Positions 1 to 10,052 of a stretch of DNA of 10,357 nt are shown piece after piece. Position 1 is the stretch's first letter; every line of letters starts with the position of its first letter. The position numbers were made by a program, and so were the translations under genes. Below the pieces are notes generated by a model. The model had not been told where the DNA came from. It ran no database searches and saw only the letters and a list, made by a program, of their open reading frames with translations. The DNA comes from Prevotellaceae bacterium (GTDB lineage: Bacteria > Bacteroidota > Bacteroidia > Bacteroidales > UBA932): NCBI GenBank assembly GCA_031268055.1, contig JAIRXY010000293.1, positions 1 to 10,357 of the forward strand, given 5' to 3'.

Positions 1-247
1 GGACGAAGTTATGCTGCATGCGGGTAGCTTTGTGCAGCGCAGAGAGGCGGCGCTGCCTAATGTCGACAAGCTAAGATTTTGTCCACAGATTTACGCAGGC
101 TTTTGTCCGCTGGCGTGGAGTTGTCGTTTGTGGCATTTTATTGAGGAAAAAGAGGCGCACCTATTGAGATTGCTACAGCCACATTTTTCAACAAAAATAT
201 TTCGAAGTTCTGCCGCCAGCATGTGTACTTTGAGCCCTCCCTTTTTC
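1..247. other. Unassigned left flank, no gene recognised
   Basis: No reading frame here gives a protein I recognise. The longest plus-strand frame (11-301) runs straight into the IS1-like end and has an unconvincing composition. A short minus-strand frame that leaves the window at position 1 could be the start of a neighbouring gene, but too little is visible to judge. Confidence 0.4.
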
Positions 248-474
248 GGTAATGTATCAAATTCGCTGAAAATTATTATCTATGCAGAAAAAACCTCATG
301 AAACATTATCAACTAATAACTTGTCCTTTTTGCAATAATGATAACGTGGTTAAAAATGGACACAATCCTAATGGTGGGCATAGATGGCATTGTAACTGCT
401 GTAAAAAAAGTTTTCAGTTGGCCTATACAACATTCAGCTGCAAAAGTAGCAAAATTTGCGAAATATGCAAGCAT
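248..474 (+). mobile_element. Truncated left end of an IS1-family insertion sequence
   Basis: The segment begins with GGTAATG at 248, which resembles the terminal inverted repeat of IS1-family elements (they begin GGT). About 50 bp later comes an ATG opening an InsA-like zinc-ribbon frame. This is the expected spacing from IS1 left end to first ORF. There is no right-hand repeat, no helix-turn-helix half of InsA and no InsB catalytic part. Recognisable IS content stops before the poly-A/terminator at 475-502, so the element is a remnant. The right boundary is approximate. The terminal-repeat assignment is from memory of the family, not from alignment. Confidence 0.55.
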
Positions 475-516
475 AAAAAAAGGCCCCACGTTGCTGTGAG
501 GCTTGATTCTGCTTAA
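298..516 (+). pseudogene. IS1 transposase InsA-like N-terminal fragment
   Basis: The 72-residue frame opens with an IS1 InsA-type zinc ribbon. It has CPFC at residues 9-12, VVKNG at 18-22, a GGHRWHC segment, then CNCC and the KSFQLAYT stretch at about 32-44. In intact IS1 this is followed by a helix-turn-helix and, by frameshift, the InsB DDE domain. Here similarity fades after about residue 45. The frame then reads through the tRNA-His terminator hairpin and ends at 516, so its last 15 or so residues are not transposase. A third Cys pair (CEIC, about residues 53-56) lies in the degenerate part. It is most likely non-functional. Autonomous use as a small DNA-binding protein cannot be excluded but nothing supports it. 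Confidence 0.6.
475..502 (-). terminator. Intrinsic terminator of tRNA-His
   Basis: Read on the minus strand, a 7-bp stem GCCTCAC/GTGGGGC (one G-T pair) with a 6-base loop is followed by C and seven T residues (475-481 on plus are all A). It lies 25 bp past the tRNA 3' end in the correct orientation. The hairpin arms are 496-502 and 483-489. Confidence 0.8.
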
Positions 517-527
517 TTTTATTGGGG

Positions 528-602
528 GGTGGAAGATGGGGCTCGAACCCACGACCCTCAGAACCACAATCTGATGCTCTAACCAACTGAGCTACATCCA
601 CC
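528..602 (-). tRNA. tRNA-His (anticodon GTG)
   Basis: The minus strand folds as a cloverleaf. The D-arm is GCTC/GAGC. The anticodon stem is TCAGA/TCTGA around loop TTGTGGT, with anticodon GTG. The T-arm is GTGGG/CCCAT with loop TTCGAGC. The acceptor has eight pairs counting the extra G at -1 (position 602) opposite C73 (position 528), the histidine identity pair. One acceptor position is a T-T opposition (T6:T67). CCA is not templated: a run of C follows C73, so CCA would be added by the nucleotidyltransferase, as is usual in this phylum. The gene has its own promoter and terminator, so it is a monocistronic unit. Confidence 0.93.
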
Positions 603-620
603 ATAGGTAAAACGAGGGTG

Positions 621-652
621 CAAAGGTAAGTATTTTGAGATAAAAAACCAAA
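621..652 (-). promoter_or_regulatory. Bacteroidota-type promoter for tRNA-His
   Basis: On the minus strand TTTG (649-652) is separated by exactly 20 bases from TACCTTTG (621-628). This matches the TTTG-N19-21-TAnnTTTG pattern recognised by the Bacteroidota primary sigma factor. Transcription would start near 614, about a dozen bases before the mature tRNA 5' end. Confidence 0.75.
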
Positions 653-668
653 TTTTTTTTTACCTTTG
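634..668 (+). promoter_or_regulatory. Probable promoter for the flavin reductase gene
   Basis: TACCTTTG at 661-668 is a perfect -7 element on the plus strand. The nearest upstream TTTG (634-637) is 23 bases away, slightly long. It interleaves with the tRNA-His promoter on the opposite strand, so the two may compete for polymerase. The predicted 5' leader to the ATG at 784 is about 110 bases. Confidence 0.5.
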
Positions 669-783
669 TGCTTCGTAAAAATACATCATTCATAAACTCA
701 CAAGTAATAATGAAGTAACTTTTGATTGTTACGGTGTTTAATTGAATGGCTGGCAGCATGCCAACCCACAAAAAAAAGAAAAA

Positions 784-1320
784 ATGAGCAAATTTAGAGC
801 ATCTTCTTTTTTTGACAAGGATAAAAAAAGTTCGCCGGCGCTAATCACAAGCGGCTTCTTGTTAGCAGTTGGCGACAAGGCCTCTCTCAACGCTACAACG
901 GCAGCGTGGGGAGCCATAGGTCACTTTTGGGAGCGCAACGTGATTTTTGCCTTTGTGAGTCCGCAGGCGCAGCGCCACATACTTCAGCTTCTTCGGCGCG
1001 AAAAGTTTTTTTCAGTCTCCTTCTTACCAGAGGAGCATAAGCGTATGCTCACCGTTTATGATGTCCTCACGGGGCGCGGCGCCGATAAGATAAAGAAGAT
1101 AAACCCTACGCCCGTAAAATTGTCCAACGGTGTAATTACTTTTCTGCAAGCATCGAGGGTGGTGGTATGTAACACGCTACACACCGAAGACTTTATTGAC
1201 CCTACTAACTTTATAGATGATGATGATTTTGCCGGCGTAAACATACCCAGCGATATTTACCGTAGAAAAGAGCTTTACCACATGTTTATAGGCGAATTTG
1301 TAGACCTGCTTGGAAAGTAG
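784..1320 (+). CDS. Flavin reductase-like (flavoredoxin-type) FMN-binding protein
   Basis: This 178-residue protein matches the flavin reductase-like split-barrel family, cytosolic FMN-binding proteins that reduce flavin or carry electrons. Visible hallmarks are PALITSG near the N-terminus, LNATTAAWG (FMN-binding region; family version is often NxMTAxW), the NVIFAFVSPQ strand, FFSVSFLPEE, the VLTGRGADKIKK segment and a C-terminal YHMFIGEFVDLL. Length is typical (about 170-190). I chose the ATG at 784 because homology begins just after it. An in-frame ATG at 742 would add 14 residues with no family resemblance. No clear ribosome binding site is seen, only an A-rich stretch. The next gene starts 55 bp downstream on the same strand, so co-transcription is plausible. 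The physiological electron partner cannot be deduced. Confidence 0.85.
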   Translation: MSKFRASSFFDKDKKSSPALITSGFLLAVGDKASLNATTAAWGAIGHFWERNVIFAFVSPQAQRHILQLLRREKFFSVSFLPEEHKRMLTVYDVLTGRGADKIKKINPTPVKLSNGVITFLQASRVVVCNTLHTEDFIDPTNFIDDDDFAGVNIPSDIYRRKELYHMFIGEFVDLLGK

Positions 1321-1375
1321 ATGCAGCTCAATAAATCATTAAATACTCATTATTAATTAACTAATTTTCAGAATT

Positions 1376-2131
1376 ATGTCTTTATTCAACTCATCAAGCC
1401 CAGCGCTTAACGATAAAGTATTTGAGGCCGCGCGTAGCGCCTCGCTGACCACAGACTCTGTAATGACGGTGCGCGGCGCCATTCACAAAACGCTGCTGCT
1501 GCTGCTGCTTGCCGTGCTTGGCGCTAGCTACACGTGGCAAATGTTTGCAAGCGCCGCTAACCCCACCGCTGCGGTAACGCCTTACATGGTTGGCGGGCTG
1601 GTTGGCGGGCTGGTGTTTTCGCTCATCGCCATTTTTCGTCCGCGCAGCTCTACCTGGGCAGCGCCCCTGTACGCTGTGTGCGAAGGCCTGTGCCTTGGCG
1701 CGCTGTCGGCCATGTTCGACGCGCAAACCAACGGCATTGTGCTGCAGGCGGTGGGGCTTTCGGTAGGCGTGCTGTTTTTGATGCTGGTGCTGTACCGCAC
1801 GGGCGCCATCAAGGTAACCGACAAGCTGCGCGGCGGCATTATCATTGCCACCGGCGCTATTGCGCTCTTTTCCGTCGTCACGTGGATAGTGGGCATGTTT
1901 ACCTCGGTAACGTTCATGTACGACGCCTCGCCGCTGAGCATTGGCATTAGCGTATTTGTGGTGATTATTGCAGCGCTCAACTTCCTGATGGATTTTGACT
2001 TTATTGACCGCGGAGCGCAAATGTCCCTGCCTAAGTACATGGAGTGGTACGGCGCATTTGGCCTTATGCTAACGCTGGTGTGGCTATACTTGGAAATGCT
2101 GAGGCTGCTCAGCAAGCTCAACAAAAGGTAG
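1376..2131 (+). CDS. Bax inhibitor-1/YccA family membrane protein
   Basis: This 251-residue, very hydrophobic protein has about seven transmembrane segments (roughly residues 37-58, 68-87, 96-114, 120-140, 153-174, 186-204 and 221-243), preceded by a polar N-terminal tail of about 35 residues. Family signatures are PLYAVCEGLCLGALS (95-110; conserved Glu103), LNFLMDFDFIDRGA (201-214; acidic cluster Asp206/Asp208/Asp211) and EWYGAFGLMLTLVWLYLEMLRLL near the C-terminus. Characterised relatives such as YetJ are pH-dependent calcium leak channels using an Asp pair. That activity is inferred here, not shown. It resembles the longer-tailed bacterial branch of the superfamily. It follows the flavin reductase gene by 55 bp with no evident promoter between them. 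Confidence 0.9.
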   Translation: MSLFNSSSPALNDKVFEAARSASLTTDSVMTVRGAIHKTLLLLLLAVLGASYTWQMFASAANPTAAVTPYMVGGLVGGLVFSLIAIFRPRSSTWAAPLYAVCEGLCLGALSAMFDAQTNGIVLQAVGLSVGVLFLMLVLYRTGAIKVTDKLRGGIIIATGAIALFSVVTWIVGMFTSVTFMYDASPLSIGISVFVVIIAALNFLMDFDFIDRGAQMSLPKYMEWYGAFGLMLTLVWLYLEMLRLLSKLNKR

Positions 2132-2132
2132 C

Positions 2133-2157
2133 GGGAGACGACCATCCCCTATTTTTT
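2133..2157 (+). terminator. Weak candidate terminator after the BI-1 gene
   Basis: A short GGGA/TCCC stem (2133-2136 with 2145-2148) is followed by CTATTTTTT. The stem is only 4 bp, so the call is tentative, but a T-tract directly after a stop codon and upstream of a new promoter is the expected place. Confidence 0.3.
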
Positions 2158-2173
2158 CACCGAAGAAATTCGG

Positions 2174-2200
2174 TTGCTTATCGAAAAATATCCTACTTTG
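2174..2200 (+). promoter_or_regulatory. Candidate promoter for the metallophosphoesterase gene
   Basis: TTG (2174-2176), 17 bases, then TACTTTG (2194-2200) approximates the Bacteroidota consensus with one base missing in the -7 element. A perfect 6-bp hairpin with a GAAA loop (ACCGAA/TTCGGT, 2159-2174) touches its upstream edge. It lies about 80 bp before the next start codon. Confidence 0.45.
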
Positions 2201-2284
2201 GTAGAATTATCCTGCTGCGGTACACAATTTTTGCCGAACATTGAGGTTTATTTTATGAAGATAATAATCAAATAGAGAAGTAAA

Positions 2285-3520
2285 ATGAATCACAGCGTAA
2301 ATCTATTCATGCCGTTTTTGCTCATTGCTACGGTACTGCTACTGAATTTGTATGCCTACCAGTCGTTGCGCACGCTTTCTGCCCCCACATACCTGCGCGT
2401 AGCGTACTGGATAGTGATAAGCTTGAGCATTGTTGTGCCGATGGCCACGCTCCTGATTGTTTTCAAATCAGGCGAAATGACGAACGTAGGCGGGTGGGCG
2501 CTAAGCACGCTAATGATATTTTTTGCACCGGTGGTAGCAATGGTAGCGCTGCTGCTGCTGGAAGATGCGTACCGCTTGGTTATGCTGGCGGTACGCTACG
2601 GCCTGCACGCGTCGCCGATTGCTTTGCCTCGGGCAAAGTGGGTAGGCGTTGTGGCGTTAGCTGCGGGAGGCGTGGCGCTGATGGCCATGCTGCACGGCGT
2701 TATGTGGGGCAAGTACGATTACCGCGTAAAAGAGCAGGTGGTGTACTTCCGCGATTTGCCGCAAGCTTTTGACGGGTTTCGTATTTTGCAGCTCTCCGAT
2801 TTTCATGCGGGTAGCTTCTCGTCGCCAAAGGATGTGCAGCGGGGTATTGATTTGGCTAACGCCCAGCACGCCGACCTGTTCATTTTTTCGGGCGATATGG
2901 TCAACAATTTTGCCGACGAGCTGCGCCCTTGGGCTTCGTACATTGCAAAGGTAAAAGCGCCGTATGGGCAACTTGCCGTGCTGGGCAACCACGACTATGG
3001 CGACTACTACAAGTGGAAAACCGCCGAGGCAAAGGCGGCCAACTTGCAATCGCTGGTTGAGCAGGAGCGCGCTATTGGGCTGCGGATGCTGCTGGACGAA
3101 AATGTAGCCATAGAGAAAGACGGGCAAAAGATAGTAGTGGCAGGCGTACAAAACATTGGCATGTACTCCCACTTTGTTGCATACGGCAACCTAAAGAAAG
3201 CGCTTGAGGGCGCAGATTCGGGCGCGTTCAAGATACTTGTTTCGCACGACCCGTCGCACTGGGACAAAGAGGTGAGCGACTACCCCGAAAAAATTCATCT
3301 CACCTTATCGGGTCACACGCACGGCTTTCAGTTTGGGGTAGAAACGCCGCTGTTCAAGTGGAGCCCCGTGCAGTGGATTTATCCGCACTGGGCAGGCTTG
3401 TACGAGAAAAACGAGCGCTACCTCTACGTCAACCGTGGCTTTGGCTTCATTCCATTCTTTATGGGGCGCGTAGGAATTATGCCGGAAATAACCGTGATAG
3501 AGCTAAGGACTCAGGATTGA
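2285..3520 (+). CDS. Membrane-anchored calcineurin-like metallophosphoesterase
   Basis: 411 residues. The N-terminal 142 form about four transmembrane helices (roughly 8-25, 38-60, 72-100 and 119-140). The rest is a calcineurin-like phosphoesterase domain with all metal motifs intact: SDFH (Asp172, His174), GDMVNN (Asp204), GNHD (Asn235, His236), the VSHDPSHW His321 and GHTHG (His344, His346). These ligate the two metal ions that activate water for phosphoester hydrolysis. The overall plan resembles the YkuE/YaeI group, some of which act on lipid-linked substrates such as UDP-diacylglucosamine or lipid phosphates. The actual substrate is not determinable here. The helix arrangement suggests a membrane-proximal catalytic domain. 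Its stop codon lies 14 bp from that of the convergent kinase gene. Confidence 0.9.
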   Translation: MNHSVNLFMPFLLIATVLLLNLYAYQSLRTLSAPTYLRVAYWIVISLSIVVPMATLLIVFKSGEMTNVGGWALSTLMIFFAPVVAMVALLLLEDAYRLVMLAVRYGLHASPIALPRAKWVGVVALAAGGVALMAMLHGVMWGKYDYRVKEQVVYFRDLPQAFDGFRILQLSDFHAGSFSSPKDVQRGIDLANAQHADLFIFSGDMVNNFADELRPWASYIAKVKAPYGQLAVLGNHDYGDYYKWKTAEAKAANLQSLVEQERAIGLRMLLDENVAIEKDGQKIVVAGVQNIGMYSHFVAYGNLKKALEGADSGAFKILVSHDPSHWDKEVSDYPEKIHLTLSGHTHGFQFGVETPLFKWSPVQWIYPHWAGLYEKNERYLYVNRGFGFIPFFMGRVGIMPEITVIELRTQD

Positions 3521-3534
3521 GCAACTTAGAAAAT

Positions 3535-4155
3535 TCAGGATTTTTTCTCAACGATTGCCTTTATCATCTCCACGGTATTGTCAACGCCCAGCAGCGATAC
3601 GTCGATGGAAACGTGGTACGACGACGACATTCCCCACTCCTTGTCGGTGTAGTATTTGTAGTAGGTAGCCCGCGATTTATCGGCTTTCTTCATCATTTCT
3701 TTTGCCTCGCTTTCGCTTATGTGGCAACGCTCAACGATATTTTTGATGCGGTTTTCGGGCTTGTTGTGGATAAAAAAGCTTACCAAATCGGGGTTGTCGC
3801 GCAGCACGTAGTCGGCGCAACGCCCTACCAGCACGCACGGCTCGCCCTTGTCCACGATGCTCCTGATGGCGTTGCTTTGGAGCAAAAACAGCCGCTCGTT
3901 GGACAGTATGTCCGGGTAAGGCGCATAGATACCCACGCTTGGTAGCCCTACCGAAAAAACGTACTGTAATCCGCTGGACGCTCTTTCATCGGCTTTTTCA
4001 AATACTTCGCCGCACAGCCCGCTCTCCTTGGCGGCCTCCGCAAGCAGCTCTTTGTCGTAGCAAGCAATGCCGAAGTCTTTGGAGAGCTTTTGCCCTATAA
4101 GGTGTCCTCCGCTGCCAAACTGTCGGCCTATGGTGATGATGATTCGTTTCTTCAT
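3535..4155 (-). CDS. Cytidylate kinase-like family protein (Cytidylate_kin2 type)
   Basis: 206 residues of P-loop NMP-kinase fold. The Walker A variant GRQFGSGG (10-17) is the signature of the Cytidylate_kin2 family (PF13189). It is followed by YDKELLAEAAKESG (33-46), the substrate-side segment VLVGRCADYVL (108-118) and a lid-like stretch KADKSRATYYKYYTDKEWG (157-175) with Lys157, Lys160 and Arg162 positioned to contact phosphates. The C-terminal YHVSIDVSLLG (180-190) is also typical. These proteins are paralogues of CMP kinase widespread in Bacteroidota and Clostridia, with poorly known substrates, so a nucleotide substrate is plausible but not proven. It is probably not the essential Cmk. 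It is transcribed toward the metallophosphoesterase, with a likely promoter far upstream at 4416-4444. Confidence 0.85.
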   Translation of the reverse strand: MKKRIIITIGRQFGSGGHLIGQKLSKDFGIACYDKELLAEAAKESGLCGEVFEKADERASSGLQYVFSVGLPSVGIYAPYPDILSNERLFLLQSNAIRSIVDKGEPCVLVGRCADYVLRDNPDLVSFFIHNKPENRIKNIVERCHISESEAKEMMKKADKSRATYYKYYTDKEWGMSSSYHVSIDVSLLGVDNTVEMIKAIVEKKS

Positions 4156-6247: not shown

Positions 6248-7453
6248 TTAGCTCAAAATGCTTTTTGCCTTCTCCAGCCCCTCGGCCAGCGCATGCACTT
6301 CGCCAAGCGTATTGTAGTAGGCAAAGGAGGCGCGCACCATGCCCGTAAGCCCATAGCGCTGCATTGTCGGCTCGGCGCAGAGCGTGCCGCTGCGCACGGC
6401 AATACCCTGCTTATCGAGCACCTGCGCAATGTCGAGGTGGTGAATATTCTTAAAGGCAAACGAAACAATGCCGCTTTTTCGCGGAGCATTGCCGTAGATG
6501 GTGAGGCCGCCTATGCTTTGTAGCCGCTCGGTAGCGCAGCGCAGCAGCTCCTCTTCGTGCAGCCGTATGGCGCTGGGGCTAATGCTTTTGGAAAATTCTA
6601 TGGCTGCTCCAAGCCCAATGGCGCCAATGTAGTTGGCTGTTCCCGCCTCGAACTTGTACGGGAGGTCGGCGTAGGTAGCTTTGGCAAACGTTACCGCTTT
6701 TATCATGTCGCCGCCGCCTTGGTAGGGCGGCATTTCGTTCAAATATTCCTCCTTTGCGTACAGCGCCCCTATGCCGGTAGGCCCGTAGATTTTGTGCCCC
6801 GAAAACGCGTAAAAATCGCAACCCATCTGCTGCACATCCACGGGGCCATGCTGCACTCCCTGCGCACCGTCCACCAGCACGGGAACGCCCAAGGCATGGG
6901 CTATACGGCAAATTTCGTCCACAGGGTTGATGGTACCCAGCACGTTGGAGACCTGCGCTACCGCCAGCAGCTTTGTTTTTTTCGATATCATCGAGGGCAG
7001 CATGTCCACGCGCAGCTCGCCGTTATCGGCAAAGGGCAGCGCCTTGAGCGCAGCGCCCTTGCGCTCGCACAGCAGCTGCCACGGCACAATGTTGCTGTGG
7101 TGCTCCATTTCCGTCACCAGAATTTCGTCGCCTGCTTTTACGTAGCGTTCGCCAAACGCAAACGCCACCAAGTTGACGCCCGCCGTGGTGCCTGCCGTAA
7201 AAATTACCTCGTGCGCTTTTGCCGCGTTGATATACCCGCGGACGCTTTCGCGGGCAGCCTCGTAGCGCGCGGTGCACTGCTCGGCCATGCGGTGCACGCC
7301 GCGGTGAATGTTCCCGTTGAGCGAAGTGTGCAGCTCGTTTACGGTATCAATCACCACCTGCGGCTTTTGCGAGGTGGCGGCGTTATCTAAGTACACCAAC
7401 GGCTTACCGTCGATGGTTTGCGACAGCAAGGGAAAGAGTGAGCGAATATCCAT
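6248..7453 (-). CDS. sufS: Cysteine desulfurase SufS
   Basis: 401 residues from the ATG at 7453, matching group II desulfurases. These PLP enzymes take sulfur from L-cysteine for Fe-S assembly, leaving alanine and an enzyme persulfide. Using E. coli SufS as a guide, every key residue appears at a constant offset of -5: His118 (cofactor stacking), Asp195 and Gln198 (pyridine ring and O3'), Lys221 in SGHKIYGPTG (Schiff base), Cys359 in RSGTLCAEP (persulfide carrier) and Arg374 (substrate carboxylate). DNAATSQKP (23-31) and the NIHRGVH loop (48-54) are also classic. The bases before the Cys encode Thr-Leu where E. coli has His-His. An in-frame ATG at 7549 would add 32 unrelated residues and lies next to the -7 element. 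No sufBCD or sufE/sufU is present here. Confidence 0.92.
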   Translation of the reverse strand: MDIRSLFPLLSQTIDGKPLVYLDNAATSQKPQVVIDTVNELHTSLNGNIHRGVHRMAEQCTARYEAARESVRGYINAAKAHEVIFTAGTTAGVNLVAFAFGERYVKAGDEILVTEMEHHSNIVPWQLLCERKGAALKALPFADNGELRVDMLPSMISKKTKLLAVAQVSNVLGTINPVDEICRIAHALGVPVLVDGAQGVQHGPVDVQQMGCDFYAFSGHKIYGPTGIGALYAKEEYLNEMPPYQGGGDMIKAVTFAKATYADLPYKFEAGTANYIGAIGLGAAIEFSKSISPSAIRLHEEELLRCATERLQSIGGLTIYGNAPRKSGIVSFAFKNIHHLDIAQVLDKQGIAVRSGTLCAEPTMQRYGLTGMVRASFAYYNTLGEVHALAEGLEKAKSILS

Positions 7454-7577: not shown

Positions 7578-7810
7578 CTTCGGTAAATTCAAATAGGGCT
7601 TCTGCTGCCTCCAAGCGCTTAAAAAAAGCTGTAGCGACCACCTAAAAAACATCTCGCTCAAAAAAATGCCTTTCTGTTTTTATCCATGCTGCACCAGCTG
7701 ACCAATAAATTGAAAGCGAACTCTACCCTTTTGCTTCGGATTAATATCACTTTCATTTTTTTCTTGAAATATAACCTGTCCTTTGGGTACAGTTTGGCGC
7801 GCATTACAGC
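7578..7810. other. Intergenic stretch, nothing identified
   Basis: Between the sufS promoter and the micro-ORF unit the sequence is T/A-rich with several short homopolymer runs. I see no convincing frame, RNA gene or terminator. Confidence 0.4.
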
Positions 7811-7818
7811 TACTTTTG
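7811..7818 (+). promoter_or_regulatory. Possible -7 element of the micro-ORF unit
   Basis: TACTTTTG is a perfect -7 match. Two upstream TTTG tetramers (7782-7785 and 7793-7796) sit 25 and 14 bases away, neither at the ideal 19-21, so the -33 part is uncertain. Transcription from about 7825 would end at the terminator near 8102, giving an RNA of roughly 280 bases. Confidence 0.4.
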
Positions 7819-7907
7819 CTGTCGGAAATCACGGCAGCGAGCGTTTCTCTTGTTGCTGAAATGTTTTTCCTAACGCTGTGATAAGCTCCGGCTAAATCTT
7901 AACTTGT

Positions 7908-7915
7908 AAGGAGGT
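7908..7915 (+). promoter_or_regulatory. Strong Shine-Dalgarno-like sequence AAGGAGGT
   Basis: A full anti-16S match lies 14 bases before the ATG at 7930. This is a rather long spacing, but notable because the recognised genes in this window show no clear Shine-Dalgarno sequence. It favours translation of the first micro-ORF, though the same bases could serve in RNA structure. Confidence 0.5.
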
Positions 7916-7929
7916 AAAAACTCAACCTG

Positions 7930-7986
7930 ATGAAAGCCCTAACCGAGCCTAAGCTTCAACCTATGAGAAAGCCCAAAAAAACTTAA
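7930..7986 (+). CDS. Putative micro-ORF 1 (18-residue basic peptide)
   Basis: Encodes MKALTEPKLQPMRKPKKT, Lys- and Pro-rich. It is the frame served by the AAGGAGGT at 7908-7915. I know no family for it. It could be a translated leader peptide, the first copy of a tandem peptide set, or chance. It ends 3 bases before the next ATG, an arrangement suited to translational coupling. Confidence 0.3.
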   Translation: MKALTEPKLQPMRKPKKT

Positions 7987-7989
7987 CTT

Positions 7990-8010
7990 ATGAAAGACGA
8001 AGAAGCCTAA
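7990..8010 (+). CDS. Putative micro-ORF 2 (6 residues)
   Basis: Encodes MKDEEA between two other micro-ORFs, with 3-base gaps on both sides (CTT before, CCT after). A product this short is probably only relevant as part of reinitiating translation or as a decayed repeat copy. No function is proposed. Confidence 0.2.
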   Translation: MKDEEA

Positions 8011-8013
8011 CCT

Positions 8014-8067
8014 ATGAAAGAAGTAAGCAATAAAAAGGCTTCATGCGTGGGCATTATGTGCAAGTAA
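8014..8067 (+). CDS. Putative micro-ORF 3 (17-residue Lys/Cys peptide)
   Basis: Encodes MKEVSNKKASCVGIMCK. Two cysteines spaced C-x4-C near the C-terminus, behind a charged N-terminal part, resemble the layout of a small modified-peptide precursor (leader plus short core). No maturase, protease or exporter gene specific to such peptides sits beside it, apart from the unspecific ABC exporter 0.7 kb away. Its stop codon falls at the base of the terminator hairpin, so the frame fills the transcript exactly to its end. It is not a family I recognise. Confidence 0.3.
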   Translation: MKEVSNKKASCVGIMCK

Positions 8068-8102
8068 AATCTCCCCCATAGGGGGGGGGATTTTTGATTT
8101 TT
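8066..8102 (+). terminator. Strong intrinsic terminator
   Basis: A 12-bp stem, AAAATCTCCCCC (8066-8077) against GGGGGGATTTT with one T-G pair, has a 5-base loop (8078-8082) inside a run of nine G. It is followed by TTTTTGATTTTT. Because an A-run precedes it, it could also act in the reverse direction. Confidence 0.75.
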
Positions 8103-8735: not shown

Positions 8736-10052
8736 CTACCGGTACATCATCCACTTCAAGAGCTCCTTAAGCGTTGGCTTCTTGCCGTACATCAAAATGC
8801 CTACACGGTAAATCCTGCCGGATACCCACACCGTAGCTACAAAGGTAGCGTAGAGTATGCCCAGCGATAGCGCAACCTGCCACACGGGAACGCCAAACGG
8901 TATTCGCGCCATCATCACTATCGGCGAGGTAAAGGGTATGATGGAAAACCAAAACGAAAGGGCGCTGTCGGGGTACTGAAACGTATTGAGCATAACAAAA
9001 ATACCCGCTATTAAGGGCATGGAGATGGGAAGCATGAGCTGCCGCGTGTCGGCCTCGGACTCTACAGCCGACCCTACGGCGGCAAACAGCGACGAGTAGA
9101 GCAGGTAGCCGCCAAGGAAAAATAGCACAAAGCAAGCGATAATCCACGTAAAGTTGAGGCCGGACAGGTAGCCGAGCGCATGCAGGTCGCCAATGCCGGA
9201 TAGACCAAAGATAGCATGGTTGGCAGCGCCTGCACCGGCCAGCCATCCGGTAACCTCAGCCGAGGCGAGAAGCTGCCCCGGCACGCCAACGAGCAGCAGC
9301 GTGAGCACAATCCACAGCGTAAATTGCAGCAGCCCTACCGCTGCCACGCCAAGTATTTTGCCCATCATCAGCTGGAATGGCCTGATGGACGAAACAATCA
9401 CTTCGACTACACGATTTACCTTTTCCTCAATAACGCTGCGCATTACCATGCCGCCAAACATAAAGATGAACATGTAAATAAGAAATGCGGAGGCGTACGA
9501 AATGGCCATTGTAACGCCTGCATGCGTACTCTGCTCTTCGCTGTTGTTGCCCCACTTTACGGTGGCAGCATGCAGCCTTGTGTGCGAATCCTGTATGATT
9601 TGAAGCAGCTGCGGAATGTTGTGCGCTTTCAGCTTGCGCTGCTCCACCTCGCGCGACAGCATGCCTACAACTTTTTGCTGCACCTCAAGGCTCACCTGCT
9701 TGGTAGAGTAAAATTTCAGCTCTTGCGGTTCGCCGCTGTCGTTCAGCTTGCCAATGTGCAGCAAAGCGTAGTAGCCTGACGCGTCAAAATTTTTGCTCAT
9801 GCCGGCGATATCGGCGTCCGGCAGCGCTGCGAAGCGGAGCACGTCGTCGGAAACCAGCACGGTGTCGAACGAATGTGTATCGTCGATAACGGCTACCACG
9901 TTCACATCGCTACTCTTGAGGCTCATGATGATAATGGGCGTGGCGGCCATGAGCGCCATGAGCAGCGGCGCCAAAAGCGTGAGCACAAAAAAAGATTTTT
10001 TGCGCACGCGGACGGTAAACTCTCGTCGGGCAACTAAGAAGATTTTATTCAT
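8736..10052 (-). CDS. ABC-2 type exporter permease (NatB-like)
   Basis: 438 residues. The architecture is a cytoplasmic start MNKIFLVARREFTVRVRKKS, a first helix (about 21-44), a large extracytoplasmic domain (about 46-180), then five helices (about 182-204, 230-256, 300-325, 340-357 and 390-412). The first two flank the hallmark cytoplasmic segment EEKVNRVVEVIVSS (209-222), typical of NatB/PF12698 permeases. Its ATG overlaps the stop of the upstream ATPase gene by 4 bp (ATGA), a strong sign of a paired exporter. NatAB of Bacillus exports sodium ions, but the substrate here is unknown. After its stop (8736) no clear terminator is visible before the AT-rich relic region. Confidence 0.9.
   Translation of the reverse strand: MNKIFLVARREFTVRVRKKSFFVLTLLAPLLMALMAATPIIIMSLKSSDVNVVAVIDDTHSFDTVLVSDDVLRFAALPDADIAGMSKNFDASGYYALLHIGKLNDSGEPQELKFYSTKQVSLEVQQKVVGMLSREVEQRKLKAHNIPQLLQIIQDSHTRLHAATVKWGNNSEEQSTHAGVTMAISYASAFLIYMFIFMFGGMVMRSVIEEKVNRVVEVIVSSIRPFQLMMGKILGVAAVGLLQFTLWIVLTLLLVGVPGQLLASAEVTGWLAGAGAANHAIFGLSGIGDLHALGYLSGLNFTWIIACFVLFFLGGYLLYSSLFAAVGSAVESEADTRQLMLPISMPLIAGIFVMLNTFQYPDSALSFWFSIIPFTSPIVMMARIPFGVPVWQVALSLGILYATFVATVWVSGRIYRVGILMYGKKPTLKELLKWMMYR

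Follow-up and report, generated by a model that had tools for sequence, protein, structure and literature searches.

A gap between two genes in an uncultured Bacteroidales genome raises the question of what a closely ordered set of short signals encodes when no standard gene explains them. The window, which is the whole 10,357-nucleotide stretch of DNA analysed here, comes from genome G000 (2.07 Mb in 313 contigs, 74.5% complete). In the window, the neighbour on the 5′ side of the element is a cysteine-desulfurase-like gene (Pfam Aminotran_5, 6251–7453, minus strand) and that on the 3′ side is an ABC-2 permease gene (8739–10052, minus strand); the 71- and 124-amino-acid frames 3′ of the element had no Pfam match. 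The first-pass annotation had described, in 7811–8102, a −7 promoter element, a Shine–Dalgarno sequence, three micro-open reading frames (micro-ORFs) separated by 3 nucleotides and a 12-bp intrinsic terminator. It had left three options: a small-peptide operon, a leader or attenuator whose downstream gene has been lost, and a small RNA in which the ATGs are incidental.

We found the −7 element and the 12-pair hairpin where they had been described (Table 1). The arrangement of parts in 7811–8102 exceeds chance, in agreement with the earlier view that it is more than decayed DNA would provide: two TAAnnnATG junctions arose in 7 of 2,000 dinucleotide shuffles of this segment, and four AACCT(G)ATGAAA-like units, allowing up to two substitutions, arose in none of 2,000, the maximum being three units, reached once. 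When the window was scanned with Rfam, tRNA-His was the sole match over the cut-off; matches to Phe_leader and RT-2 near the element, with E values of 4.1 and 6.4, were no better than chance and were rejected. Near the tRNA-His gene (525–602), a 72-amino-acid frame at 298–516 matches the InsA N-terminal zinc ribbon (PF03811) and is probably the remnant of an IS1-type transposase gene.

Table 1 Features of the element in the window (energies are for the predicted duplex with the sRNA seed)
Feature	Position	Strand	Remarks
Upstream region, probable control	7664..7810	+	Borders by eye; conservation peak ~7733–7775; from alignments of four loci
−7 promoter element TACTTTTG (TAnnTTTG)	7811..7818	+	Present in 4/4 loci; G003 form is TATCTTTG
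5′ hairpin region, includes ACGGCAGCGA at 7831–7840	7815..7858	+	ACGGCAGCGA invariant in 4/4 loci
Site 1, degenerate repeat copy with 'Shine–Dalgarno' AAGGAGGT	7889..7916	+	−17.0 kcal/mol
Site 2, CTCAACCTGATGAAA with one-base bulge	7916..7942	+	−17.0 kcal/mol
Site 3, CCTAAGCTTCAACCTATGAGAAAGCC	7946..7975	+	−30.0 kcal/mol
Site 4, CTTAACTTATGAAAGAC	7973..7998	+	−22.6 kcal/mol
Site 5, CCTAACCTATGAAAGAA	8001..8028	+	−23.7 kcal/mol
Micro-ORF 1, 18 amino acids, judged incidental	7930..7986	+	Relatives differ in length and frame
Micro-ORF 2, 6 amino acids, judged incidental	7990..8010	+	6-codon ATG frame in 4/4 loci; length follows repeat spacing
Micro-ORF 3, 17 amino acids, judged incidental	8014..8067	+	Not seen in three relatives
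Intrinsic-terminator-like hairpin, 12 pairs	8066..8094	+	T-rich DNA after it; C/G hairpin in 4/4 loci

Homologous loci in related genomes

A DNA search of 60 genomes (G000 included) returned three clear homologous loci, in G003, G005 and G010, all of the same genus, and the element is present in 4 of the 11 genomes of that genus. The four loci occupy three different neighbourhoods, and the relatives' flanks are unlike those of the window. The G010 and G005 loci lie in the same place, adjoining dapF and a gene for a CNNM/CBS-domain protein (Pfam match in G010; the G005 counterpart is 93% identical), and the G003 locus is flanked by a DUF2461 gene (upstream) and an alpha-galactosidase-like gene (downstream). 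The G000 counterpart of the CNNM/CBS gene (90% identical) is followed by a Fic-domain gene, and the searches reported no element at that place. Gene order around sufS is generally not preserved. Judged by the sufS-like protein, the genomes that carry the element are the nearest to G000, with identities of 91% (G010), 90% (G005) and 82% (G003), compared with 71–81% for the other orthologues matched in the genus.

The spread of the element was narrow. R1, a model of the repeat block, gave 81–91 bits at each of the four loci, and none of the other matches listed exceeded 17.5 bits. Model R2, built from window positions 7725–7846, scored 97–116 bits in the same four genomes, and the next best match listed among 60 relatives reached 26 bits; its side matches in G003:C6 (26 bits) and G000:C298 (19 bits) had no array by eye. 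The pattern AACYTNATGAAAN{6,36}AACYTRYGARAAA occurred in 4 of 149 family genomes, every one in this genus. The pattern AACYTRTGAAAN{10,40}AACYTRTGAAA occurred in 3 of 398 genomes, again in the same genus (reversed control, two matches in one genome), and missed G005 because one copy there reads GCG. In a scan of genome contigs that yielded 40 stretches, the three that scored with R1 or R2 were the records of G003, G005 and G010. Stretches from three scans of viral sequences (4, 13 and 1) were rejected because by eye they look like lysine-rich coding repeats or chance, and the first four gave no match to R1 or R2. An Arenicella metagenome-assembled genome holds a short CTTCAACGTAACCTATGAAAG-like repeat in two to three copies, whose likeness to the array may be due to chance.

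Decayed or non-functional repeat DNA could have such a restricted spread, with three neighbourhoods in four genomes. However, the promoter box, the upstream region and the array are kept while the flanks differ, and we regard this explanation as highly improbable.

Repeat units and reading frames

In an alignment of the four loci, the parts that are kept are ~110–150 bp before the promoter box, the TAnnTTTG box, ACGGCAGCGA, the repeat block and the C/G hairpin at the end. By eye, no TTTG precedes the −7 element at the usual −33 spacing, and the T-run after the C/G hairpin is clear only in the window and G010, being weak in G003 and G005. A consensus fold had both-side changes in 6 of 48 pairs, from four loci only. 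Just 3′ of the promoter, ACGGCAGCGA is identical in the four loci amid variable surroundings; the predicted pairing of this stretch with the sRNA described below is −12.5 to −18.7 kcal/mol. In G005, a local inverted repeat made up of CCTAACCT and AGGTTAGG lies at the start of the array (G005:C58 1617–1641), and by eye none of this type was seen in the other three loci.

The first-pass annotation had recognized the signals but overlooked a tandem repeat among them, as well as the fact that this repeat is complementary to a conserved sRNA. The motif resembles CTTAACCTATGAAA, and the repeat can be written as YTYAACCT(R)RTGAAA-like, with four copies and one decayed copy in the window, five copies in G003, and three copies plus partial ones in each of G010 and G005. 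The three ATG frames are present as annotated, with gaps at 7987–7989 and 8011–8013. These 3-nucleotide stop–start gaps are a property of the tandem repeat, because the motif TAAcctATGAAA contains TAA-nnn-ATG. The Shine–Dalgarno sequence AAGGAGGT is indeed found at 7908–7915, 14 nucleotides before the first ATG (7930), but it sits inside the decayed repeat copy, is absent from the three relatives and aligns in position with an intact G003 copy, AACCTGTGAAAGA.

Conservation of the frames and the hairpin, which the annotation had proposed to examine in relatives, was partial. The C/G hairpin and a 6-codon ATG frame are present in all four loci, but ORF 1 and ORF 3 are not kept: ORF 1 encodes 18, 4, 15 and 4 amino acids in the window, G010, G003 and G005, respectively, and ORF 3 was seen in no locus but the window. 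At site 3, the window's ATG is replaced by GTG in two relatives (G010 and G003) and by GCG in the third (G005). The 6-codon frame encodes MKDEEA, MKNEEA, MKNGEA and MKNGKT, the last of which, in G003, is nested inside a longer GTG frame. This frame spans one repeat copy to the next, and therefore its length follows the repeat spacing.

These comparisons bear on two of the original options. If the micro-ORFs were translated into functional peptides, three ordered frames with 3-nucleotide gaps and a 6-codon frame at the same place in every locus would be expected features of the operon. By contrast, the changing length of ORF 1, the restriction of ORF 3 to the window, the replacement of the site 3 ATG in all three relatives, the lack of conservation of AAGGAGGT and a 6-codon length set by repeat spacing all argue against it, and a small-peptide operon is weak at best and, in our judgement, unlikely. 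A leader or attenuator that has lost its gene would explain the ordered promoter box, short frames and terminator; the chance of this is very small, as in every locus the first recognizable gene 3′ of the element has the opposite orientation. Of the three options, the small RNA with incidental ATGs is the favoured one.

A FopS-like sRNA and its predicted pairing with the array

Six of the 27 weak R1 matches listed share model columns 23–52 and fall in six genus genomes, at 11.5–12.1 bits (E 0.37–0.76). Read on the reverse strand, all six places show one sRNA-like gene, as do three places in other genera; in the six it has a TAnnTTTG box, a seed and a terminator. The layout of this gene in the genus is TAnnTTTG, a mini-hairpin, the seed UUUUUUCAUAGGUUAAGUUUUAGGUUAG and the terminator, and it lies directly 3′ of alaS (Pfam tRNA-synt_2c) in the six genus loci checked; no alaS match was found beside it in three loci of other genera. 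Of 149 family genomes, 67, spread over 15 of the 25 genera, contain a 29-mer antisense to the seed with up to three mismatches (reversed control pattern, 0); in the window's genus, 7 of the 11 genomes have one match each. A terminator-like hairpin follows 36 of the 39 sites examined (one locus counted twice).

The Rfam family RF04319 (FopS) gave a full-length match of 25–32 bits in eight of nine loci scanned, and the sRNA-like place was the best FopS match in each of the seven genus genomes with the 29-mer. The gene is also predicted to have the FopS layout, with a single-stranded 5′ seed containing UUUUUCAU and a 3′ terminator hairpin. We call it 'FopS-like' rather than FopS because none of the 11 genus genomes reached the gathering score of 56, and because RF04319 at E up to 10 matched 8 of 14 control genomes (one over the cut-off). 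Possible second FopS-like genes, below the cut-off, are found at G001:C314:6225-6291 (28.2 bits) and G003:C30:4690-4747 (23.6 bits). No FopS-like gene was found in G000 (74.5% complete), G005 (72%), G004 or G007; weak R1 matches in G000 and G005 and a weak RF04319 match in G000 had no such gene by eye. The element and the sRNA occur together in G003 and G010 only.

In other genera, TGGCA[CT]N5[TC]TG, which follows the sigma-54 consensus, ends 16–20 nucleotides before the seed in 30 of 33 FopS-like loci (one counted twice), compared with 331 of 20,000 random 60-mers and none of six loci of the window's genus. This suggests that, in many of the family's genera, FopS-like sRNAs may be driven by RpoN.

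The complementarity between array and seed is beyond chance, both for the best site and for the mean over sites. The best site per locus is predicted to pair at −30.0 kcal/mol in the window, −32.9 in G010, −33.7 in G003 and −28.9 in G005. Random 32-mers (n = 6,000) drawn from 18 genus loci had a mean of −9.2 and a minimum of −21.5 kcal/mol against the seed, a null that is conservative because one source locus holds the G010 element. With flexible site borders, the best duplexes were −31.4 (window), −40.3 (G010), −36.7 (G003) and −35.1 (G005), each matched by none of 300 element shuffles. The mean over sites (4, 3, 5 and 3 sites per locus, omitting degenerate site 1) was −22.7 to −24.6, which none of 500 shuffled seeds reached in any locus; the reversed seed gave −6.6 to −8.2. 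The summed duplex energy of the element was reached by 22 of 300 shuffles in the window and 19 in G005, and is not exceptional there; it was reached by none in G010 and G003.

Individual sites differ in strength. Pairing is weak at site 2 (−17.0 kcal/mol in the window), with a range of −16.5 to −19.4 when its counterparts are included. In some sites the pairing extends past the start-codon box: G010, G003 and G005 each have a site with a CCTAAA extension that fits the 3′ half of the seed, and each has a site whose 5′ flank pairs with that half better than all of 6,000 random 19-mers. For the other 12 of the 15 sites, extended pairing was reached by 4 to 4,131 of the 6,000 controls, and for site 3, the best of the window in this respect, by 26. 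The site cores are predicted to be unpaired only in part (0.44–0.93). Site differences between loci, which are few and were judged by eye, include a mixture of changes that keep pairing and changes that break it.

One possible explanation for this complementarity is that the array is a generic mimic of translation starts, bound by ribosomes or by a protein that recognizes start regions in RNA, and that the seed matches it simply because the seed complements start regions. AACCTATGAAA resembles the start regions of Bacteroidota genes. In PMC11697453, RbpB, the protein that binds FopS, is described as a global RNA binder. However, the seed pairs far less well with 39 start regions taken from frames of 250 amino acids or more (minimum −17.4 kcal/mol; the first ATG was taken as the start, and some starts are possibly wrong), and the CCTAAA extension of one site in each relative fits the 3′ half of the seed. 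Both observations make a generic mimic improbable.

Alternatively, the element may be a target rather than a sponge, that is, a short mRNA or regulatory RNA under control of the FopS-like sRNA, in which pairing regulates the element itself. The complementarity would be identical, and pairing alone cannot separate targets from sponges. We nevertheless favour a sponge because there is no conserved product beyond six codons and because four to five sites exceed what a single target needs; the target reading is doubtful, though of all the alternatives it is the one to which we give the most weight.

A putative sponge and its relation to known systems

We propose, with a probability of roughly two in three, that 7811–8094 encodes a non-coding RNA of ~270 nucleotides that serves as a sponge, or decoy, for the conserved FopS-like sRNA. 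Transcription would start just 3′ of the TAnnTTTG box and end at the hairpin at 8066–8094. The RNA would fold its 5′ hairpin and display four to five target-like sites (YTYAACCTRTGAAA), some with a CCTAAAnCTT extension, each able to pair with the sRNA seed. Several sRNAs could thereby be held per sponge molecule and kept off the start codons of their mRNA targets. We infer transcription, binding in the cell and titration from the arrangement of the locus, and the targets would be glycan-uptake mRNAs if published FopS work applies here. In favour of the sponge, the four loci share the promoter box, upstream region, array and C/G hairpin despite their other flanks, and the repeat motif is kept where two of the three ORFs are not. 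Against it count the failure to detect the partner in G000 and G005, the partner's RF04319 scores below the cut-off, the 6-codon frame in four of four loci, the unexceptional summed duplex energy in the window and G005, the weak site 2, the 12 sites whose extended pairing is reached by controls, the partly paired cores, the missing −33 box, the weak T-run in two loci, and the small number of loci, only four.

Repeated sites within one RNA are known from other systems. CsrB and RsmZ RNAs carry repeated binding sites, as the element does, and titrate a protein, whereas the sites of the element are complementary to an RNA. ToxI, the RNA array of type III toxin–antitoxin systems, likewise has tandem repeats between a promoter and a terminator; by contrast, no toxin-like gene adjoins the array at the four loci, among all downstream and some upstream neighbours examined. 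A likeness can also be drawn to bacterial sRNA sponges such as QrrX of Vibrio cholerae (PMC9732341), in that the element, too, would be a separate RNA that pairs with regulatory sRNAs and inactivates them. The element differs from QrrX in its four to five tandem sites, in being in Bacteroidota and in being known from sequence alone.

The predicted partner resembles FopS and GibS of Bacteroides thetaiotaomicron (PMC11697453 and PMC7366714; RF04319) in having a UUUUUCAU-type single-stranded seed followed by a terminator hairpin. According to PMC11697453, FopS sRNAs pair around the start codons of SusC-type transporter mRNAs and block their translation, thereby repressing glycan-uptake operons, and the protein RbpB counters this block. 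The same paper gives 12–15 FopS copies per Bacteroides genome. The partner differs in scoring below the Rfam cut-off, in having a 5′ mini-hairpin and in occurring once, perhaps twice, per genus genome, with no sign of the Bacteroides-type multicopy state. The element itself carries the complement of FopS and is not a FopS. Words beginning with 'sponge' have no occurrence in the main FopS paper (PMC11697453), and in the GibS work in B. thetaiotaomicron (PMC7366714) sponges appear as a general concept. We found no FopS sponge in the open-access literature searched.

The way in which post-transcriptional control works in Bacteroidota is poorly known. We lean slightly towards the broader view that uncultured Bacteroidales have naturally evolved a dedicated sponge, with four to five tandem anti-seed sites, some of them bulged, which tunes a FopS-like sRNA that blocks start codons. 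It would be the first sRNA sponge in Bacteroidota and, as a tandem array, an unusual design for bacteria, confined to one small clade while acting on an sRNA widespread in the family. The locus also carries a warning for annotation, as tandem 'stop–3 nt–ATG' micro-ORFs in Bacteroidota can be anti-seed repeats and not genes. If the proposal is true, the sponge would add a layer of control by switching off the sRNA, for whose titration a tandem array of sites is a natural design.
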